Shown here one piece after another: positions 1,188 through 41,694 of a stretch of 41,694 nt of DNA. The notes beneath the pieces are model-generated. The model was not told the origin of the DNA. It made no database searches and saw only the letters and a list, made by a program, of their open reading frames with translations. The translations under genes and the position numbers were made by a program. The stretch comes from a virus: IMG/VR virus record IMGVR_UViG_3300028883_000019, positions 1 to 41,694 of that record, one strand, 5' to 3'. Each line of letters opens with the position of its first letter. The first letter of the stretch is position 1.

Positions 1188-4142
1188 CTAACCGGATGGT
1201 TTGAGTTCCGCTTCCATGTGGTGGACGAGGCTCAGCAGACTGGCCGGGTTCCCGTGGGTGGGATAGATGGCGTACTGCGGGCGCGTGATCGTGGCCGCCG
1301 AGGCTGCCGGAATCGTCACCCGCTCCACGTCCCCGGTGTTGAGCCCCGAGTCGAGCGGCACCGCGTATAGAGTGCTGGAATCCGGGCCGATTCGCAAGGC
1401 TGAGGTCTCCAACACCTCCAGCGTGACCTCGTGTACGGTGATGTGCGCCTGGGGCTCCTCGGCGAAGCGTACCGGGGCCACCTGGATCGGAGAGGAATCT
1501 GCTACGTCGTAGCCGACCAGCACCACGGAGGCCGCGCTGGAGATGGTGATGGCACCGCTGGATACGGTCTTGTCGGCCTGCGCTGCACCGTCTGCCCAGA
1601 CCTGCACCGCCTCGCCCTCTAGGTGATCCAGGCCGCTGATCGCGGTGGTACTGGGGCCGTCGTACTTCACGGCGCTGTCCAGATGCCACGCATCCTCGAT
1701 GTCAACGCCGGTTGCCGTGTCGTCGAAGGGCTCCTGCATGGCCTCGACATACTCCACGGTGGATCCGTTGATGGTGCGGCGCACGATGGCAAATAGCTGG
1801 TCGAAGCCCTCCGAGGGCAGCACGGCGATGGATAGTACGCGAGGCTCGTCGGCGCCGTCCAGGGAGCCGCCCAGCGTGTGGAGGTGCCAGCCGGACGCCT
1901 GGGTCTCGGGATGCACCGTGAGCCCGATGAGCTTGCCGTCGGCGCGCACTGCCCACAGCACCGAGGACGGAACCGCCGCGAAGGCCATCTCCTTGATGCC
2001 GGTCTGCGTGACGTGATCGGCGAGCAGGGTTAGGTCGGGCTGATTGAACGCCCCTTGGTTCGGGGCCAGCCCGCGCACCCGCAGGCCGCCGGACTGGGCG
2101 TACACCACCACGTCGCCCACGATGACGGGGAGCACGGCAGAGGCGTCGAACTCGGACGCCAGGCGCACGGACAGCGAGAGCGGAGAGAAGGCGGCATTCT
2201 CGTCGCTACCCTGGGAGATGAACGGCCCGGTCGCCATGCCGGAGACCAGTTGCCGCGCCCCGGCCAGCCAGCGCACGCGGGAGAGGCGGCGCGTGGCGAT
2301 GGTAAAGGCCATTCCGTTGTCGGGGACCACAGTGTCGTCGAATTGCGTGGGCTGGAACTCCTCGAAGGAGCCCACTACGGAGGCCCAATGCCCCTGCGGC
2401 TCCGCGTCAGTCGCGGCGAACACGAGGCGCTGCTGGTAGAACGACACCGCCGACGGGTAGCCGGACGTGGCGGAGAACGCCCCAAGCGCCCAGCGCGCCG
2501 TGGCGGAGGTGTCCGCAAGGTCGGACCCGATGACGGTGGCCGTGGCCGTGGTGGCGTTGGTGACCGCTGTGATGACGCACCAGCCCCATTCCGGGGACTC
2601 GAACAACCGCACGGCGCGGCCTACGTCGGTGGACTCGAACAGGTCCGCGCTGGCGGTGAGCGTGATGCTGCCGGTGGCGGCGGACGGCGTGATCGTCAGA
2701 GATGTGGAGTTCTCCGGCTGGTAGGGGCCGTCTTTCAGCAGGTAGCTCGTCGGCAGGCCGCTCACGTCCTGCATGTTCGCCAGGGTGAACGACGCCTCGC
2801 CGGTGCGCGTCAGCTTGCGCGTAGCGTAGTTGGGGTGCGTCAGGTACATCACGTCGTTCGCCTGCGCCCATTGCAGGTCGGCGATCTCCCCACCTGACCA
2901 CGGCGTCGTGACTTCAAGCGGCGTGCCGGGGCTGGATTCCACGCGGGAGTCGTTGCGCCAAAAGCGGATATACAGGTGGCCGAACTCCATCATGTACGGC
3001 GCGCCCGTAGAGCCTGCGAAGGGGATCAGGCGACGGCCCGTGGTATCCTCGAAGATCGTGAACAGGTCCGCATCGGATGTGTCGTCGTCGCCCACGATGA
3101 CCAGGATGCCGTTGCCGAACCGCGCTCCATTCAGAGAGCCCGTTGCCCCGCTTATCTGGTTGGCGCTATTGTTCCACGTTCCCCCATCATCGAGGGAGTA
3201 GAAGTACACCCCACCCGTGTCGAATACCGCGATCAGGATTCCACCGTATCTTGCGAATGCCTGGATGACGGCCCCCCCTGGCGATGATTGCACAGTGGTC
3301 CAGGTGCCGTTACCATTTCCTCGGTAGATCAGGTTTGTCCCTATGTAGAATAGCTCGGACGTGTCGTCATAGAAAACGGCCTGTGACCCCTGGCCCGTCA
3401 ATGCGGACCATGTGTCGCCATCGTCTGTGGATATTCTATGACTGTCGGTCGTATCCGAAACAGCGATGATAACCCCGCTGGTGGGGTCAATCGCAATATC
3501 CCACAGGTCCACTCCGGGAGCATCCTCCTCAGTCCATACGGTGCCGTTGGTGGAGCGCAAGATAATCCCAGAACTCTCACCCACAGCCAGGAATGATGTT
3601 GCAGTCCACACCACACCGCGTAGGTGCGGAGTTCCAGTAACCGCCTGACTTTCGGTAGTCCATGTGTCTCCGTCGGAAGAAATCATGATGGTGGTATTGG
3701 TTGCCCCATCGTACTCCCCTACGGCGACAAACAATGACCCGCTCCACGCGACCGCATACAGATCGGCGTCCTCCGTTGGGATCGTCCCAGCAGCCGCCCA
3801 TGTCACGCCGTCGTCAACCGAGCACACGATGACCGGGTTAGTGCCGTTGGAGTCGCCCACAGCCACCCACATCCCCAACTCCTCGGCGTACACTGCATCG
3901 TTGAGGTCGTAGGCCCCCGTGCCGCTACTGCGCTCCGTAGCCGCGAATGCCGAGACGGTCTTGCACGCCCCCAGGTACTTGAATCCTGGGCGGCGGCTGA
4001 TGGACCCCTGCGGGTTGATGATCCAGTTGCGAAGTTGGGCCAGCCCTTCCTTGTAGGCGGGGCTGTCGGTGCGGCCGAGGGCGCGGGGGGACAGTTCCCC
4101 GACGGCGAACGTGGACTGGCGGACGGCGGCGTTGCTCGCCAT
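1188..4142 (-). CDS. Tail tubular protein B (gp12-like) with an inserted beta-propeller
   Basis: The 984-residue protein opens with the family's N-terminus (FAVGELSPRALGRTD, then NWIINPQGSISRRPGFKYLG), as in T7-like tail nozzle proteins. The usual continuation of that domain (RRLIPFAGSTGAPYMMEFGHLYIRFWRN) appears only at about residue 370. Between them, residues 62-368 hold a separate domain with six Asp-box-like repeats (S-x-D-G-x-T-W; e.g. SVDDGVTW 108, SSDGDTW 155, STNGTVW 197, STDDGDTW 238, SLDDGGTW 316), which implies a beta-propeller. The rest, residues 370-984, is the normal tail body. It lies directly after the gp11-like gene. The family forms the distal tail tube; the propeller may bind surface glycans, which is inference. 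The insert DNA is visibly less GC-rich than its surroundings. Confidence 0.88.
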   Translation of the reverse strand: MASNAAVRQSTFAVGELSPRALGRTDSPAYKEGLAQLRNWIINPQGSISRRPGFKYLGACKTVSAFAATERSSGTGAYDLNDAVYAEELGMWVAVGDSNGTNPVIVCSVDDGVTWAAAGTIPTEDADLYAVAWSGSLFVAVGEYDGATNTTIMISSDGDTWTTESQAVTGTPHLRGVVWTATSFLAVGESSGIILRSTNGTVWTEEDAPGVDLWDIAIDPTSGVIIAVSDTTDSHRISTDDGDTWSALTGQGSQAVFYDDTSELFYIGTNLIYRGNGNGTWTTVQSSPGGAVIQAFARYGGILIAVFDTGGVYFYSLDDGGTWNNSANQISGATGSLNGARFGNGILVIVGDDDTSDADLFTIFEDTTGRRLIPFAGSTGAPYMMEFGHLYIRFWRNDSRVESSPGTPLEVTTPWSGGEIADLQWAQANDVMYLTHPNYATRKLTRTGEASFTLANMQDVSGLPTSYLLKDGPYQPENSTSLTITPSAATGSITLTASADLFESTDVGRAVRLFESPEWGWCVITAVTNATTATATVIGSDLADTSATARWALGAFSATSGYPSAVSFYQQRLVFAATDAEPQGHWASVVGSFEEFQPTQFDDTVVPDNGMAFTIATRRLSRVRWLAGARQLVSGMATGPFISQGSDENAAFSPLSLSVRLASEFDASAVLPVIVGDVVVYAQSGGLRVRGLAPNQGAFNQPDLTLLADHVTQTGIKEMAFAAVPSSVLWAVRADGKLIGLTVHPETQASGWHLHTLGGSLDGADEPRVLSIAVLPSEGFDQLFAIVRRTINGSTVEYVEAMQEPFDDTATGVDIEDAWHLDSAVKYDGPSTTAISGLDHLEGEAVQVWADGAAQADKTVSSGAITISSAASVVLVGYDVADSSPIQVAPVRFAEEPQAHITVHEVTLEVLETSALRIGPDSSTLYAVPLDSGLNTGDVERVTIPAASAATITRPQYAIYPTHGNPASLLSLVHHMEAELKPSG

Positions 4143-4144
4143 AG

Positions 4145-5248
4145 CTACCTTTGTCCTGGTGTCCAGCCGCTGTGCCGGGCCGTGATCCAGTCATCCTCGA
4201 CGTAGGCGTCCTCGCCGTCCTCCTGCGAGTCACGAGTGGCCGCCTTGTCCTCGGCCTCGGTCAGCAGGTCTTTGATGAGCGACTTGCGCTCGTCGGACGC
4301 GCCGAGGGGGATCGCCAGCCGCCACGCAAGGCGCAGGCCGATCAACTCCTGGAGAAGCGGGTCGAACGTGGTGGGGTCGGTGTTCTGGTACTCGTAGCGG
4401 ATCGGCGCCTCCGCCCCGTCGTAGAGCAGATAGCCGTCCTCCAGCTTGTAGTTCTGGTCGCCGTCGTTCACGTCCAGAAAGGCCAGGCAGTCAACGGGGA
4501 GGGGCCAGCCGTACTTGAAGCCAAAGGGCGGGAACGTCGGCTGCACTGCCGCCGTGGTGGTGGCCGCGTAACCGATCTTGGCGTCGTTCTGGCTCAGTTG
4601 CGCGCCCCAGGCGTACACGGTGCCCTGCGCCGACGCCGTGGCCCCGGCCGGGTAGATGGTCACTGTCAGGGTGGTGCTGCCGTCAGCGACGTTCGCCAGG
4701 GTGACGTGGAACCGCCACCACCCGCCGCCCACGGATTCCAGTGTCCCGGCGGAGACCGTCGGGGTAGCCGCCCAGGTGATGTCCACGGCTTGCGACGCGC
4801 CGCTGGAGCCGCCGGAGAAAGCGAGCAGCAAGCGCGTCACAGCCGCAGTGCCCTGCTTGAGATAGACCGACAGCGTGTACTGCTTGTCGTCGTTGGGGAC
4901 CGTCACAGCCTGGGCGATGGTGCCCGCATTGCCAGCGTCTGCGTCGGTCAGCAGCGTGGCCGTTGTGGTGCCGTCGGGCGCCCGCGCGTTGTCGTTGGAG
5001 GCGGTGGCGTTGGTGGCTGTCCATGTGGTGGCAAGGGCCTGGGACTGGAGCAGCAGGTTCTCGCCCAGCACCGTGCGCTTGGTGCTGACGTTCCAGGGGT
5101 GCTCGCGCAACACCTTGTCCCGCTCCTCGGGATAGGCGTTGTTGCACAGATCGTCCTCGTAGGTCCCGTCGGAGCCGAGCGTGGTCAGTTGTCGCTTGCC
5201 CAGCGCGTCGAGCGCCTGATTGCAGATGGTCGTCGCGGAGGCGGTCAT
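4145..5248 (-). CDS. Tail tubular protein A (gp11-like) with an inserted jelly-roll domain
   Basis: The 367-residue protein starts with the gp11 signature (ATTICNQALDALGKRQLTTL, then ERDKVLREHPWNVSTKR at about 42-58). In the family this runs on into the region seen here at about 240 (FGFKYGWPLPVDCLAFLDV). Residues 63-235 are an insertion resembling the carbohydrate-binding-like domains of phage structural proteins: APDGTTTATLL, YTLSVYLKQGT, GGGWWRFHVTL and VYAWGAQL. The C-terminal helical part (LIGLRLAWRLAIPL) is typical of the gp11 ring. Its role would be the adaptor between portal and tail nozzle. Start ATG 5248 gives the canonical N-terminus. Confidence 0.87.
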   Translation of the reverse strand: MTASATTICNQALDALGKRQLTTLGSDGTYEDDLCNNAYPEERDKVLREHPWNVSTKRTVLGENLLLQSQALATTWTATNATASNDNARAPDGTTTATLLTDADAGNAGTIAQAVTVPNDDKQYTLSVYLKQGTAAVTRLLLAFSGGSSGASQAVDITWAATPTVSAGTLESVGGGWWRFHVTLANVADGSTTLTVTIYPAGATASAQGTVYAWGAQLSQNDAKIGYAATTTAAVQPTFPPFGFKYGWPLPVDCLAFLDVNDGDQNYKLEDGYLLYDGAEAPIRYEYQNTDPTTFDPLLQELIGLRLAWRLAIPLGASDERKSLIKDLLTEAEDKAATRDSQEDGEDAYVEDDWITARHSGWTPGQR

Positions 5249-5271
5249 CGGGCAGGCTCATGCAAGCGGCG

Positions 5272-5308
5272 GGCGGGGTGCCGACCAGTGGGATGCCGAC
5301 ACCCCGCC
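5272..5308. other. Perfect 9-bp inverted repeat between head and tail genes
   Basis: GGCGGGGTG (5272-5280) and CACCCCGCC (5300-5308) can pair around a 19-nt loop. The repeat sits in the 76-bp gap between the second head-protein gene and the gp11-like gene. There is no T-run after it on either strand, so it is not a standard intrinsic terminator. An attenuating or RNA-processing hairpin that lowers tail-gene expression relative to head genes is possible. Confidence 0.5.
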
Positions 5309-5324
5309 ACCTGGGGGAGCGCCT

Positions 5325-5738
5325 CTACGATCCTGCGCGCCGACCGATGAAGGCCAGCGAAAGCGTGCCGGACGCCGGGAGCGTCGCCGTGCCGTCGTTG
5401 GAGATCAGAATCTCCTCGGCTGCCTCCAGCACCGCCGGGATGATGGCGACGACCTCCGTGGTGGCAGTGAACACACCGCTTGCACGGTACTTGGTCGCCG
5501 TCCCGGTGATCCCGATGCTGATCTTGGCCGTGCTCAGCGTCGGCCCGGCCATGACGTACAGTATGGGCGTGAACCCCGCCGGCAACGTCACCATGTCGAT
5601 GGTTTTCGACTTGGCCTGCGTTGCCAGCGTGAGCACACCGTAGAAGATGTCGCAGTCGCCGAACTGCCAAACCCCAGGATCGTAGGGCTCGTTCTCGTTC
5701 TCGGGCGACTGCGTTTCCGCCGTGTAGTCACCAGCCAT
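5325..5738 (-). CDS. Putative capsid decoration/head protein, paralogue B
   Basis: The 137-residue protein aligns along its whole length with its neighbour at 5750-6172. Shared blocks include AGDY/SGDY at the start, TLATQAKSKTID, STAKISIGITGTATKYRAS and EEILISNDGTATLPASG near the end. It has a beta-rich composition and only one cysteine. It lies just downstream of the major capsid gene and upstream of the tail tube genes. BPP-1-like phages carry a cement protein beside the capsid protein, so a decoration or minor head role is reasonable. The function is inferred from position. Confidence 0.6.
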   Translation of the reverse strand: MAGDYTAETQSPENENEPYDPGVWQFGDCDIFYGVLTLATQAKSKTIDMVTLPAGFTPILYVMAGPTLSTAKISIGITGTATKYRASGVFTATTEVVAIIPAVLEAAEEILISNDGTATLPASGTLSLAFIGRRAGS

Positions 5739-5749
5739 GGGTCACCTCG

Positions 5750-6172
5750 CTAGTGGCGGCCCACGATGGCGAACAGCCGCAGCTCGCCGGAGGCCGGCAG
5801 GGCTGCGGTGCCGTCGTTGGAAACCAGGATTTCCTCGTCGGCGGTCAGTGCCGTGTGCGTGGCGGCGGCGTTGAACCACGTCACGGTATCCGTGGTGGTG
5901 TACGTCGCCGACGCCCGGTACTTGGCGGCGGAGCCGGAGATGCCGACCGACACCTTGGCGGAGCCCAGGGAGGTGTCCGTCAGGAAGCCGAAGATGTACG
6001 GAATCTCCCCGGCCTTGATGGTGAAGAAGTCGATGGTCTTGGACTTGGCCTGGGAGGCCAGCGTGATCGTACCGAAGTACAATCGCGCATTGACGCCCAG
6101 GAAGCCAGGATCGACGACCGCCCCCGTGGTTTGCAGGACGGTGGATTGGTCGCTGCTGTAGTCGCCAGACAT
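5750..6172 (-). CDS. Putative capsid decoration/head protein, paralogue A
   Basis: This 140-residue protein is a clear tandem paralogue of the protein at 5325-5738. They share TLASQAKSKTID, GSAKVSVGISGSAAKYRAS and DEEILVSNDGTAALPASGEL. It starts at ATG 6172, 12 nt after the major capsid stop. Strong beta propensity with no signal peptide or membrane segment fits a small virion protein. The pair may be a cement protein plus a variant copy, or alternate subunits. Which of the two is abundant cannot be told from sequence. Confidence 0.6.
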   Translation of the reverse strand: MSGDYSSDQSTVLQTTGAVVDPGFLGVNARLYFGTITLASQAKSKTIDFFTIKAGEIPYIFGFLTDTSLGSAKVSVGISGSAAKYRASATYTTTDTVTWFNAAATHTALTADEEILVSNDGTAALPASGELRLFAIVGRH

Positions 6173-34599: not shown

Positions 34600-34838
34600 T
34601 CCACCCACCCCCGCCGAGGCCACACAATCGCCTCGATCTTGGTGATGCGGTTGTCCTGACGGTCCAGCCGCTTCTCCTGCGATACGGACTTTTCGGCCAG
34701 CACGGCCACGTCCCGCCCGATGGTGTATCCCCAGGCTGCCATGGCGATGGCCGTCGTCAACGCCGCCGCGACAAACTGCACCGCGAGGGTCTGGAGCAGT
34801 CGCCTGTCGAGGACCGAGCCGTTGCTTTGGCCGTTCAT
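34596..34838 (-). CDS. 80-residue membrane-anchored coiled-coil protein (spanin- or holin-like)
   Basis: From ATG 34838, which overlaps the endolysin stop (ATGA), the protein has a short polar start (MNGQSNGSVLDRRLLQ), one transmembrane segment (LAVQFVAAALTTAIAMAAWGY) and a charged coiled-coil tail (SVSQEKRLDRQDNRITKIEAI). This topology suits an inner-membrane spanin or an antiholin-like protein. No outer spanin lipoprotein was found. Confidence 0.6.
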   Translation of the reverse strand: MNGQSNGSVLDRRLLQTLAVQFVAAALTTAIAMAAWGYTIGRDVAVLAEKSVSQEKRLDRQDNRITKIEAIVWPRRGWVE

Positions 34839-35347
34839 ACGCGCCTCAGTTCGACGTGGGGATAGTCGTCGAATCCCTGATCCGTGAGTATCTCGCCGTC
34901 TCCATCCCAGTCCACTCCAAATCGAAGAACCCAACGCTCCCCGGTGTTCTGGAGGTGCGCGTCCAGGTAGCGGTCTCCGACCTCCTTGACGTGGCGCATC
35001 ATCCAGGCGAACTGCGCGTACTTCGCCACGGCATCCTGGATGAAGCCTCGCGCCCCACCAGCGATAACACGACGCTCGATCTCTGTCCATGTGGGAACGA
35101 CTAGCCTGCGGCCATGAACATAGGGCCACAGGTCGGCGGCGTAGGCGTAGCCATCATCCTGAACGATGTGCCAGGAGTTCATCGTGGTGCTGACACCGTT
35201 GCGCACGTTCTCGGCTTGCTGCTCCTCGGTGCGGGCGCCCTGGTCAATCCGGAAGTCCACACCGACGATGGCGGCGTTGAGGACGCCCAGCAACAGCGGG
35301 TGCAGATGCTCCATCTGCGAGATGCTATGAGCGCTGAATTGTGCCAC
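34835..35347 (-). CDS. Endolysin, M15-type peptidase
   Basis: The 170-residue protein has the M15/VanY-like layout: helix QMEHLHPLLLGVLNAAI, then FRIDQGARTEEQQAENVRNG (the GxRt substrate region), NSWH (H60) with GYAYAADLW (D72), and the C-terminal PHVEL (H164). These are the zinc ligands of phage L-Ala-D-Glu endopeptidases of the T5 lysin kind. There is no signal peptide, so a holin would be needed; the small membrane proteins behind it supply candidates. It would cut the peptide cross-links of the cell wall at lysis. Confidence 0.83.
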   Translation of the reverse strand: MAQFSAHSISQMEHLHPLLLGVLNAAIVGVDFRIDQGARTEEQQAENVRNGVSTTMNSWHIVQDDGYAYAADLWPYVHGRRLVVPTWTEIERRVIAGGARGFIQDAVAKYAQFAWMMRHVKEVGDRYLDAHLQNTGERWVLRFGVDWDGDGEILTDQGFDDYPHVELRRV

Positions 35348-35612
35348 GGGCAGCCTCCTTGGCTCGTTCCTCTGCGTAGATGCGGCGGATACGGTCGTCC
35401 TCAGATTTCTCGCGCGCGGCCTGCTCGTCGGCCATACGCTTCTGCATGGCCTTCCGCTCCGGGCTGATCCCCTCCGGCCCCAACTCGTGCTGGCTCTTGG
35501 TCTGGTCCCACTCGGCGTCAGTAGCGGGGATGAACACCGCCTCCATCTTTCCCGTGTCGGGATTGCGGCGCTTGCGCATGTGCGTGGGGCGCTTGGTCAT
35601 GAAATCGGTCAT
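35325..35612 (-). CDS. Unknown 95-residue charged protein upstream of the endolysin
   Basis: The protein begins MTDFMTKRPTHMRKRRNPDT, then VFIPATDAEWDQTKSQHELG, and ends in a long charged helix (KRMADEQAAREKSEDDRIRR and on). It overlaps the previous gene by ATGA and the endolysin by 23 nt. A structural or chaperone role for the preceding tail protein is possible; no family recognised. Confidence 0.5.
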   Translation of the reverse strand: MTDFMTKRPTHMRKRRNPDTGKMEAVFIPATDAEWDQTKSQHELGPEGISPERKAMQKRMADEQAAREKSEDDRIRRIYAEERAKEAARGTIQRS

Positions 35613-36250
35613 GCGATCCTCTTGTCACCGTACAGGGCGGCGTCGAACGAGAGTGTAGCGCCTGATTCCATCGCTACGAGAAAGCTGGCGATGGCGGCTG
35701 TAGTGGAGATGTATCCACTAACCCATTGATCCCAGCCGCGCGAGCCCGCCGCGATGATCCCCCACATGTGGCCGACCATCGCAATGTAGCCAGTTGAGGC
35801 GTCCTGCCAATCCGCGAACCGGATGTCCGCGTGCATGACTTCGCCGGAATCCGCTCCAATAGCCTCCGTCGACCCTGTACCGCCGAAGCGAAATTCAGAC
35901 CCTCCTGTATAGTCGCTCTGACCGTGGACGCTGCTATAGCGGTGGACGTGATAGCTCTGCTGGTAGTTGGCGGACAGGCCGTTCACTGTTACAAATCCCA
36001 GTCGGTCGTCTGTACCAGACTGCCAACTCCGTATGCAAAGCAGCAGGTCCTTGTAGTTGGTGGCCTCCGCGTAATCTGTCAGCGTGTAGCCGAAACTGGA
36101 TTGCCCGCTTACCGTGTCCCAGCCTGCGAGGAGTAGCTCATCCGGGCGCCACAGCGGATACCCCTGCGGCCTGGCCTTGGTGGCCCCGACGCGGACCTCA
36201 GCAAAGACCGCTCGGGTCCCGATCCGTTCGATGCGCGGGCTAGTCGCCAT
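35609..36250 (-). CDS. Putative tail-associated receptor-binding protein
   Basis: From ATG 36250 (GGAG 9 nt upstream) the 213-residue protein is beta-rich. It resembles C-terminal domains of phage tail proteins: YKDLLLCIRSWQSGTDDRLGFVTVNGL, NYQQSYHVHRYSS and a final ISTTAAIASFLVAMESGATL. The middle is Gly/Ser-rich. It lies between a gp16-like/minor-virion block and the lysis genes, where podoviral fibres or small receptor-binding proteins are often encoded. No other fibre gene is visible in the window, so it is the main candidate along with the gp12 propeller. A TTG at 36271 is rejected as start. Confidence 0.55.
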   Translation of the reverse strand: MATSPRIERIGTRAVFAEVRVGATKARPQGYPLWRPDELLLAGWDTVSGQSSFGYTLTDYAEATNYKDLLLCIRSWQSGTDDRLGFVTVNGLSANYQQSYHVHRYSSVHGQSDYTGGSEFRFGGTGSTEAIGADSGEVMHADIRFADWQDASTGYIAMVGHMWGIIAAGSRGWDQWVSGYISTTAAIASFLVAMESGATLSFDAALYGDKRIA

Positions 36251-36671
36251 CCCACCACGCTCCGGCGTCAAATCCCGCGCACTCGTGCGACGCCACCGTG
36301 TCCACCTTGAGCAGATGGATCAGGTTCTCCAGGGCGCTGATCTGCATGGGGGTGTACCTGCCGTCTCCGGAGCCGACGAGCAGGATGGCGACGCTGGTGG
36401 TGTCGGTCACGGCGTCCCCGCTGTGAAACCCAGCCTGCTCCACGGGGCGGGCCTCCTGAATCTTGCCGTCCCACTCGGGGTCGTAGGCGTTCCCTCCGCT
36501 GACGGCGTTGCCGTTGCAGAGCACAAAGTGGACGCCGAGCCCATTGCGCCCCACGCAGTGGTGCGGGACATCCAGCAGGTCGTCCACCGTGCCCCAGTCG
36601 CGCCCGGATGCGTGAACCAGCACCGAGCGGATGTCGCGCGTGGCGACTCCGGAGGGGTTCTTTGCGGCCAT
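36240..36671 (-). CDS. T7-lysozyme-like amidase fold, possibly degenerate
   Basis: From ATG 36671 (AGGAGG upstream) the 143-residue protein follows the T7 lysozyme/amidase-2 pattern: SVLVHASGRD (H20, compare VHCS), GVHFVLCNGNAVSGG, AGFHSG, TSVAILLVGSG, YTPMQISALENLIHLL and ASHECAGFDAGAWW. At the second zinc site the usual A-H-H-E...C reads A-S-H-E-C with the intervening loop missing. The Tyr of GYHF is Val. It may therefore be inactive or use H129/C131 instead. Its place among virion genes suggests a virion-associated protein rather than the lysis enzyme. Confidence 0.65.
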   Translation of the reverse strand: MAAKNPSGVATRDIRSVLVHASGRDWGTVDDLLDVPHHCVGRNGLGVHFVLCNGNAVSGGNAYDPEWDGKIQEARPVEQAGFHSGDAVTDTTSVAILLVGSGDGRYTPMQISALENLIHLLKVDTVASHECAGFDAGAWWDGD

Positions 36672-36678
36672 GGGCCTC

Positions 36679-37074
36679 CTATGCAAGCAGGTAGGCTTGC
36701 ACCGAATAGGTCAGCGTCGTGCCGCCGGTATGCGTGGACACAGCCCTGATCTGCGGCGGCAGCACGTCGCTGACGCTGACGTTGGCGGTCTCGCCGATGC
36801 CTGGGTAGACGTGCAGGGCGGTGTGCCCCACGGCAGCGATGGCGCCAGTGACCGCGCCTGGGATGTCATACCACGCCTCCGCCGTCTCGTCGTAGCCTTG
36901 CAGCTGGACAGCGATAGACACGGTGTCCGGGTCGAGGGTCACGTCCACAAAGACGATGGCGCCCCTGCGGCCCTTCATTTCCACGGCATCCCCGTTGTGC
37001 GGAGACGCCGCAGTGGTGCGGGCGGCGCTGTCCAGCAGTGAGACGTGCCTTTGGGGTGGGAGTGTGCGGTCCAT
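36679..37074 (-). CDS. Small beta-sandwich virion protein
   Basis: The 131-residue protein has a pattern seen in phage minor structural proteins: GAIVFVDVTLDPDTVSIAVQ, an AWYDIPG turn, ALHVYPGIGE, VSDVLPPQIRAVSTH and a final TLTYSVQAYLL. These suggest one beta-sandwich domain. It is encoded right after the 1190-residue internal virion protein and before the amidase-like gene. Exact role unknown. Confidence 0.6.
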   Translation of the reverse strand: MDRTLPPQRHVSLLDSAARTTAASPHNGDAVEMKGRRGAIVFVDVTLDPDTVSIAVQLQGYDETAEAWYDIPGAVTGAIAAVGHTALHVYPGIGETANVSVSDVLPPQIRAVSTHTGGTTLTYSVQAYLLA

Positions 37075-40656: not shown

Positions 40657-41694
40657 GCTTCACCTCCCTGAGCCTGGCGTCACGCGCCTGGACAGCCGTT
40701 TGCAGCCGTGTGAGCAGGTCCATCTGGCTCCGGAACTCCTCATCGCTGATGGCGTTGGCATCGTACTGCCCTTTCACCTCAGCGATCCGCTTGTCCACGT
40801 CGGCCTGGACGACCTTGGACGACACTGGGAGGCCGACCTGCGGGGCCAGGATAACCAGTTGCTCGCTCAGGTCCACCAAGGCGTACTTCTCCACCGTGTT
40901 GCGCGAGAACTCGTCCACCTCGGCCTGGGTGGCTGCCGGGTGCTGCGCGGCCCAATGCTCGTACTCGTTGAGGGCTTCGGCCATCAGGCGCACGTTGATG
41001 ACCTTGGCGCCAGGGATGGCGCTCACGTCCAGGGAGCGGCGCACATAATCGAATCCGGCGGCGATGGGGCTCTTGAGGCCATTGGACTTGAGGAGTTCCT
41101 GGTTCTTGCTCAGGTAACTGGAGGCGGTGGCGCCGGAAATGCGCCGCGCGGCGTGGGCGTGCAGAATCTCCTGCCGGACTGCCGTGCGGTCGGCCCCCGG
41201 CGCGTAGATCGACGCCAGCAGTTGCGCGGTGGCCGCCGGGTCATCCTGTACCGTGGTGCCGTCGGATTCAGCCAATTTCACCAGTTCCTTGAAATCGGTC
41301 TTGGACAGGCTCTCCCGGTTGGCGCGCACCTGCTCCATGGTCAGCGTGCCCTCGGCGTACTTGTCCCACAGGTCCATCGCAGCCTCGTCCTCGCGGGATT
41401 TGAGCGCGGCTTTTTCACGCTTCTCCGCGGAACCGAGACCGTTGAGCGCCCCGACGATCAGGGAGCGGCGCTGGTCCCCGTCCATGTCCTTGAAGTACGC
41501 CGGCTGGCCGTCCTCGGAGGCCGTCAGCATGGCGAGAGCCTGCACCGGCTGTGCCGTGACCAGCACGGAAGCGCGGTTGTAGGCCACCTCCTGGGCGAAG
41601 CGCGCCTTCTCCTTGAGAGCGTCCTCCTCGTGGATGAACCCGGCCGCGGCGCTTGCATCTAGGTCTGCGCCGTACTGGGCGATCTCCTCCTCCA
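40646..41694 (-). CDS. Internal virion protein, gp15-like (C-terminal part, continues from the left end)
   Basis: The frame is open to the right edge and joins 1..629 through the identical end overlap (codon 204 is at 41585-41587). The C-terminal 313 residues begin VAYNRASVLVTAQPVQALAM. They are Ala/Leu/Gln-rich helices with EVDEFSRNTVEKYALVDLSEQLVI and ending TRLQTAVQARDARLREVKRG. No catalytic motif is seen. The full 516-residue protein precedes the gp16-like gene, overlapping it by 11 nt. Confidence 0.75.
   Translation of the reverse strand, partial: EEEIAQYGADLDASAAAGFIHEEDALKEKARFAQEVAYNRASVLVTAQPVQALAMLTASEDGQPAYFKDMDGDQRRSLIVGALNGLGSAEKREKAALKSREDEAAMDLWDKYAEGTLTMEQVRANRESLSKTDFKELVKLAESDGTTVQDDPAATAQLLASIYAPGADRTAVRQEILHAHAARRISGATASSYLSKNQELLKSNGLKSPIAAGFDYVRRSLDVSAIPGAKVINVRLMAEALNEYEHWAAQHPAATQAEVDEFSRNTVEKYALVDLSEQLVILAPQVGLPVSSKVVQADVDKRIAEVKGQYDANAISDEEFRSQMDLLTRLQTAVQARDARLREVKRGR
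41568..41694. repeat. Right copy of the 127-bp contig-end overlap
   Basis: Identical to bases 1-127. Removing it gives a closed circle of 41,567 bp and an uninterrupted internal-virion-protein gene. Confidence 0.95.

Follow-up and report, generated by a model that had tools for sequence, protein, structure and literature searches.

A predicted seven-bladed propeller inserted in the tail nozzle protein of a podovirus

The nozzle protein encoded by the viral DNA examined here (IMG/VR record IMGVR_UViG_3300028883_000019, whose whole stretch of 41,694 nucleotides is called the window) is interrupted near its N-terminus by a domain that is compositionally foreign to it and is predicted to fold as a closed Asp-box-type beta-propeller of seven blades, with YCF48 as the nearest fold. 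As gp12-type nozzles already own a native seven-bladed propeller (PMC6702177, PMC9509320), the insert would be a second one, placed just N-terminal to the first. The window carries an exact terminal direct repeat of 127 bp (1-127 and 41568-41694) and the internal virion protein reads across its ends, which makes it probable that the whole genome is present.

The nozzle and the site of insertion

The 984-residue protein matches phrog_376, a tail family, over its core (E 1.6e-150) and, by sequence profile, the Carin-1 'Tail Nozzle' 8ck1 (E 3.7e-74). In the full-length AlphaFold2 model the nozzle core has a pLDDT mostly above 90, as do residues 370-984 specifically, and the best PDB matches of the model are nozzles; a fold search gave a TMq of 0.62 and an E of 4.9e-47 against 8ck1 and retrieved T7 gp12 as well. 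The gene lies between those for an adaptor and an internal virion protein (phrog_418, 632-1186), an order as in T7/Carin-1-type phages. By profile, predicted fold and gene order, the protein is thus a podoviral T7/Carin-1-type nozzle (TTPB), which shares core fold, gene order and native central propeller with the Carin-1 nozzle, T7 gp12, the Pelagibacter phage TTPB and Bbp13 of BPP-1. T7 gp12 forms a platform from its N- and C-terminal parts plus a seven-bladed propeller, and its fibre dock, on the outer surface, runs from the end of that propeller to the platform (PMC6702177). The domain names used for residues 370-984 (Table 1) are borrowed from T7 gp12 by analogy (PMC6702177).

The first-pass annotation had placed an insertion in tail tubular protein B at 3038-3956, with a break after RRPGFKYLGACKT and a resumption at RRLIPFAGS about 300 residues later. 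The alignment bears this out and refines the limits slightly: with the last letter of RRPGFKYLGACKT at residue 62 and the first of RRLIPFAGS at residue 370, the insert comprises residues 63-369 (3036-3956 on the minus strand). In HMMER, query residues 8-62 pair with 8ck1 13-67 and residues 370-515 with 8ck1 72-207, and because the alignment breaks there, the 307 extra residues stand in place of 4 in 8ck1. The full-length model puts the insert between a strand at 54-59 and a strand at 371-375. The native, channel-lining propeller is retained downstream, which rules out that the insert is merely the native gp12 propeller.

Table 1 Features of the nozzle and adaptor genes in the window
Feature	Position	Strand	Extent	Basis
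Nozzle / tail tubular protein B (TTPB, gp12)	1188..4142	(-)	984 aa, with inserted propeller	phrog_376, 8ck1
N-terminal platform segment	3957..4142	(-)	residues 1-62	aligns with 8ck1 13-67; pLDDT mostly above 80
Inserted Asp-box beta-propeller, predicted seven-bladed	3036..3956	(-)	residues 63-369	absent from homologues except L096; profile, AlphaFold2 model, fold matches, GC3 outlier
Native propeller, nozzle tip, fibre dock, C-terminal platform	1188..3035	(-)	residues 370-984	aligns without a break to homologues and 8ck1
Adaptor / tail tubular protein A (TTPA)	4145..5248	(-)	367 aa	phrog_394, E 2.7e-34
Second inserted domain, in the adaptor	4544..5062	(-)	adaptor residues 63-235	relative of RcGTA head-spike fibre Rcc01080

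Comparison with gp12 homologues, a check proposed in that annotation, indicates that the region is not an integral part of the nozzle. Only one of about 125 homologues examined at the site (some of the contigs near-identical) has a domain there, namely IMGVR_UViG_3300005253_000488, here L096; in the other podoviral nozzles examined, the platform segment leads into the native propeller with no domain in between. The site is empty in seven diverse phage homologues and in all IMG/VR and GTDB genome relatives that cover it except L096; the four nozzle relatives from a genome-contig scan are all without the insert. L070 and L144 also lack a propeller there, although their tblastn range starts inside the insert. 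When viral contigs were scanned with a single protein as query, either the entire nozzle or the insert, no relatives came up, alignments being required; against PDB sequences the insert had chance matches only. The literature searched yielded no description of a TTPB with an inserted domain, which is weak evidence since it took in few subscription papers. Other nozzle relatives carry their extra domains mostly elsewhere, at profile positions 100 and 522; these modules are typically 70-80 aa, single or doubled, e.g. roughly 78 aa in L038, L046 and L069.

Fold and composition of the insert

Strict matches to the Asp-box pattern (S/t)-X-(D/n)-X-G-X-(T/s)-(W/f/y) occur five times in the insert (20,000 shuffles: mean 0.02, maximum 2) and nowhere in the rest of the nozzle protein. 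The Pfam BNR score of the insert, 16.3, lies below the cut-off of 27. A blade profile built without the window sequence scores 63 bits on the insert, against 9.4 for the best of 1,000 shuffles, and reports three blades when used alone; the seven matches within the window are partly circular, since the blade profile that gives them includes the window's own blades. It is the alignment and the AlphaFold2 model that support a count of seven. Alignment and profile give six Asp-box-like blades plus a seventh that lacks the box, and the insert modelled with 34 viral relatives (pLDDT 78.6, pTM 0.84) has 28 strands (7x4), of which the first falls outside the first blade and completes the last, closing the ring. 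The propeller that the first-pass annotation expected from structure prediction is thus recovered with its six Asp-box-like blades, but with seven blades rather than six repeats in all. Blades are degenerate, at 10-43% identity to one another; the reading frame is unbroken, none of the seven blades is lost and the ring still closes.

Foldseek matched the insert model to YCF48 and to designed seven-bladed propellers (E 1e-9 to 6e-11, TM about 0.7) and, among viral models, to phage BNR/DUF6242 proteins. While YCF48 and other Asp-box propellers, the best PDB fold matches, share the predicted seven-bladed Asp-box-type fold, they are 16-19% identical to the insert and the role in photosystem assembly is irrelevant here. 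As the first strand closes the last blade, in sequence and in the model, the N- and C-termini of the insert should lie side by side, and adjacent termini would let a loop of the nozzle carry it with no disturbance to the rest. Confidence for the insert is low in the full-length model (pLDDT about 40-75), which makes its orientation relative to the adaptor-nozzle groove tentative.

The insert is compositionally foreign in the nozzle protein. Its GC content is 0.587 and its GC3 0.691, against a GC3 of 0.90 and 0.87 in the flanks, and composition changes at both ends. The amino acids of the insert would predict a GC3 of 0.862 (SD 0.020), so the observed value is 8 SD lower; the GC drop read from the letters in the first-pass annotation therefore holds also in the codon profile. 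The insert has a net charge of about -34.

Related propellers and the adaptor insert

The L096 nozzle, at 49% identity the closest homologue found, carries a propeller at the same site, and its phage resembles that of the window in having an adaptor insert too. Unlike the seven diverged blades of the window, L096 has four that are 70-83% identical to each other and encoded by a 129-bp tandem repeat (87% matches). Short-read assembly can collapse near-identical repeats, so four may be an undercount. As the first blade and the junction resemble those of the window, the insertion is probably common by descent and the other L096 blades re-amplified. The acquisition suggested in the first-pass annotation thus fits the foreign composition and the absence from other homologues but, given the propeller of L096, is not unique to this phage; with only one other such nozzle found, cases at this site seem few. 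The L096 nozzle has, unlike the window's, an additional NLL-type insert near its C-terminus. In the L096 adaptor (2142-3674) a further repeat array (YDSKSFxVATEE...FKPDGTKLYV, YVTN-like) is nested within the insert.

A search with the insert blades, by pattern over virus collections, yielded 49 loci, L096 included. Related propellers are carried by tail fibres (L109, L094, L114, L129, L136 and Caulobacter phage Percy), by Dit proteins (L124, L138, L117, L135), by minor-tail relatives (L101, L127) and by a protein with a head-fibre-type N-terminus followed by a seven-bladed Asp-box propeller (L104, 2297-3349). Since the carriers came from a pattern search of virus collections, the enrichment on virion proteins is one without a matched background. 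Many carriers have 7 or 14 blades, and the count is a multiple of seven in 17/44 other viral carriers, above chance, with counts approximate and some contigs redundant. The nearest sequence relatives in named phages are the Percy tail fibre and a propeller protein of Limnohabitans phage DC31; the Percy propeller, however, is the C-terminal part of a fibre and is not placed inside a tail-tube protein. The P22-gp10-like L095 (phrog_578; 2834-5449) has a seven-bladed propeller inserted in a tail/stabilisation protein, but the nozzle family and the site differ. Where L095 has its propeller, its P22-gp10-like relative L159 (3055-6678) carries other repeated domains, and L159 has an apparent further propeller at a second site.

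The adaptor of the window is also enlarged, with 367 aa against about 190-275 aa in the homologues aligned. Its insert matches Rcc01080 (PDB 6tb9 F3, E 5e-4) and is missing in most adaptor homologues; RcGTA head fibres fasten particles to the host capsule (PMC7296036). That no classical fibre gene is visible, as the first-pass annotation had remarked, holds at the profile level: the late genes scanned gave no tail-fibre profile. Two small ones (35609-36271 and 36679-37074), possible appendages, have no profile match, and fibre genes could have diverged beyond recognition. Between the capsid and adaptor genes, two neighbouring genes (5325-5738 and 5750-6172, minus strand) encode proteins of 137 and 140 aa that resemble each other, apparent tandem paralogues. 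Two lysis-type genes, one amidase-like and one endolysin-like, are found at 36240-36686 and 34835-35347 (minus strand).

A possible adhesion role and its alternatives

Podoviruses are usually thought to recognise their hosts via fibres or spikes docked on the tail. In the phage of the window, a mobile, autonomous propeller grafted in the nozzle probably acts as an adhesion module beside the fibre dock, most likely by binding the host surface, a role argued from the carriers of related propellers. Within a T7-type nozzle, the graft would occupy the linker that leads from the N-terminal platform segment into the native channel propeller. Because entry and exit of the native propeller are adjacent and the insert sits at the entry, it should emerge near the fibre dock, a placement that follows the topology of T7 gp12; T7 docks its fibres in the groove between adaptor and nozzle. 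Six nozzle copies would then display six propellers around the tail, adjoining this groove. The most likely target would be a molecule on the host surface, probably a glycan of the envelope or capsule, and nozzle propeller and adaptor insert may together aid adsorption. TTPA and TTPB are able to bind a host receptor (PMC7241545), and the phi11 RBP contains a propeller (PMC4901313). The tail tube itself may thus be an adhesion device, like the 'evolved Dit' of siphophages, in which a binding domain is inserted in an annular tail-tip protein and promotes adsorption (PMC10688798). Here the carrier is phrog_376, a podovirus nozzle, and not phrog_33, and the domain differs, making this a functional analogy only. 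It is possible, if doubtful, that there is no separate fibre at all, the grafts on both walls of the groove replacing fibres and the site being a hot spot of blade-array exchange and re-amplification that changes host binding.

Alternatively, the propeller could be a docking platform that anchors a small appendage protein, such as the product of either unmatched late gene, with no host contact itself. Propellers are common as protein-binding scaffolds and the T7 nozzle carries its fibre dock where the native propeller ends (PMC6702177), but the candidate genes are small and only putative appendages, and in L109 and Percy the related module is the distal part of a tail fibre, there the would-be host-contacting end; we regard docking as unlikely. 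A little less likely again is a domain that stabilises or thickens the tail, or a near-neutral insertion that binds no ligand. Degenerate blades, foreign codons and the many relatives that live without the insert would agree with this, whereas an intact frame and closed ring, the retention of a propeller in L096 with blade amplification and the repeated occurrence of related modules on exposed virion proteins speak against it.

A sialidase or other glycan depolymerase on the nozzle seems very improbable, even though many Asp-box propellers are glycosidases (PMC2716378). No glycosidase profile matches, the insert contains only 7 Arg, 0 Lys and 2 His in 307 residues, and the nearest fold is the non-enzyme YCF48. 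A GH33-type sialidase, with six blades, an RIP motif and a family profile, was rejected, since the insert has a predicted seven blades, no RIP and no such match. Of the receptor or sialic/glycan-binding module proposed in the first-pass annotation, a host-surface role thus remains plausible and the sialic part does not, Asp-boxes being structural and not sugar-binding sites (PMC2716378). The shift in composition at both ends might also point to a chimeric contig, and the native propeller might have been misread; with one uninterrupted ORF, a native propeller present in addition, and an independent contig (L096) whose propeller lies at the identical site and agrees in junction and first blade, an artefact is scarcely credible.

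If the insert is indeed an adhesion module, host recognition would reside in the same polypeptide that gates DNA, and a binding module borne on the nozzle, together with blade turnover in the sister phage, would carry the evolved-Dit principle over to phages with short tails. Similar phages may be found by a simple sequence mark, a domain located between platform and propeller.
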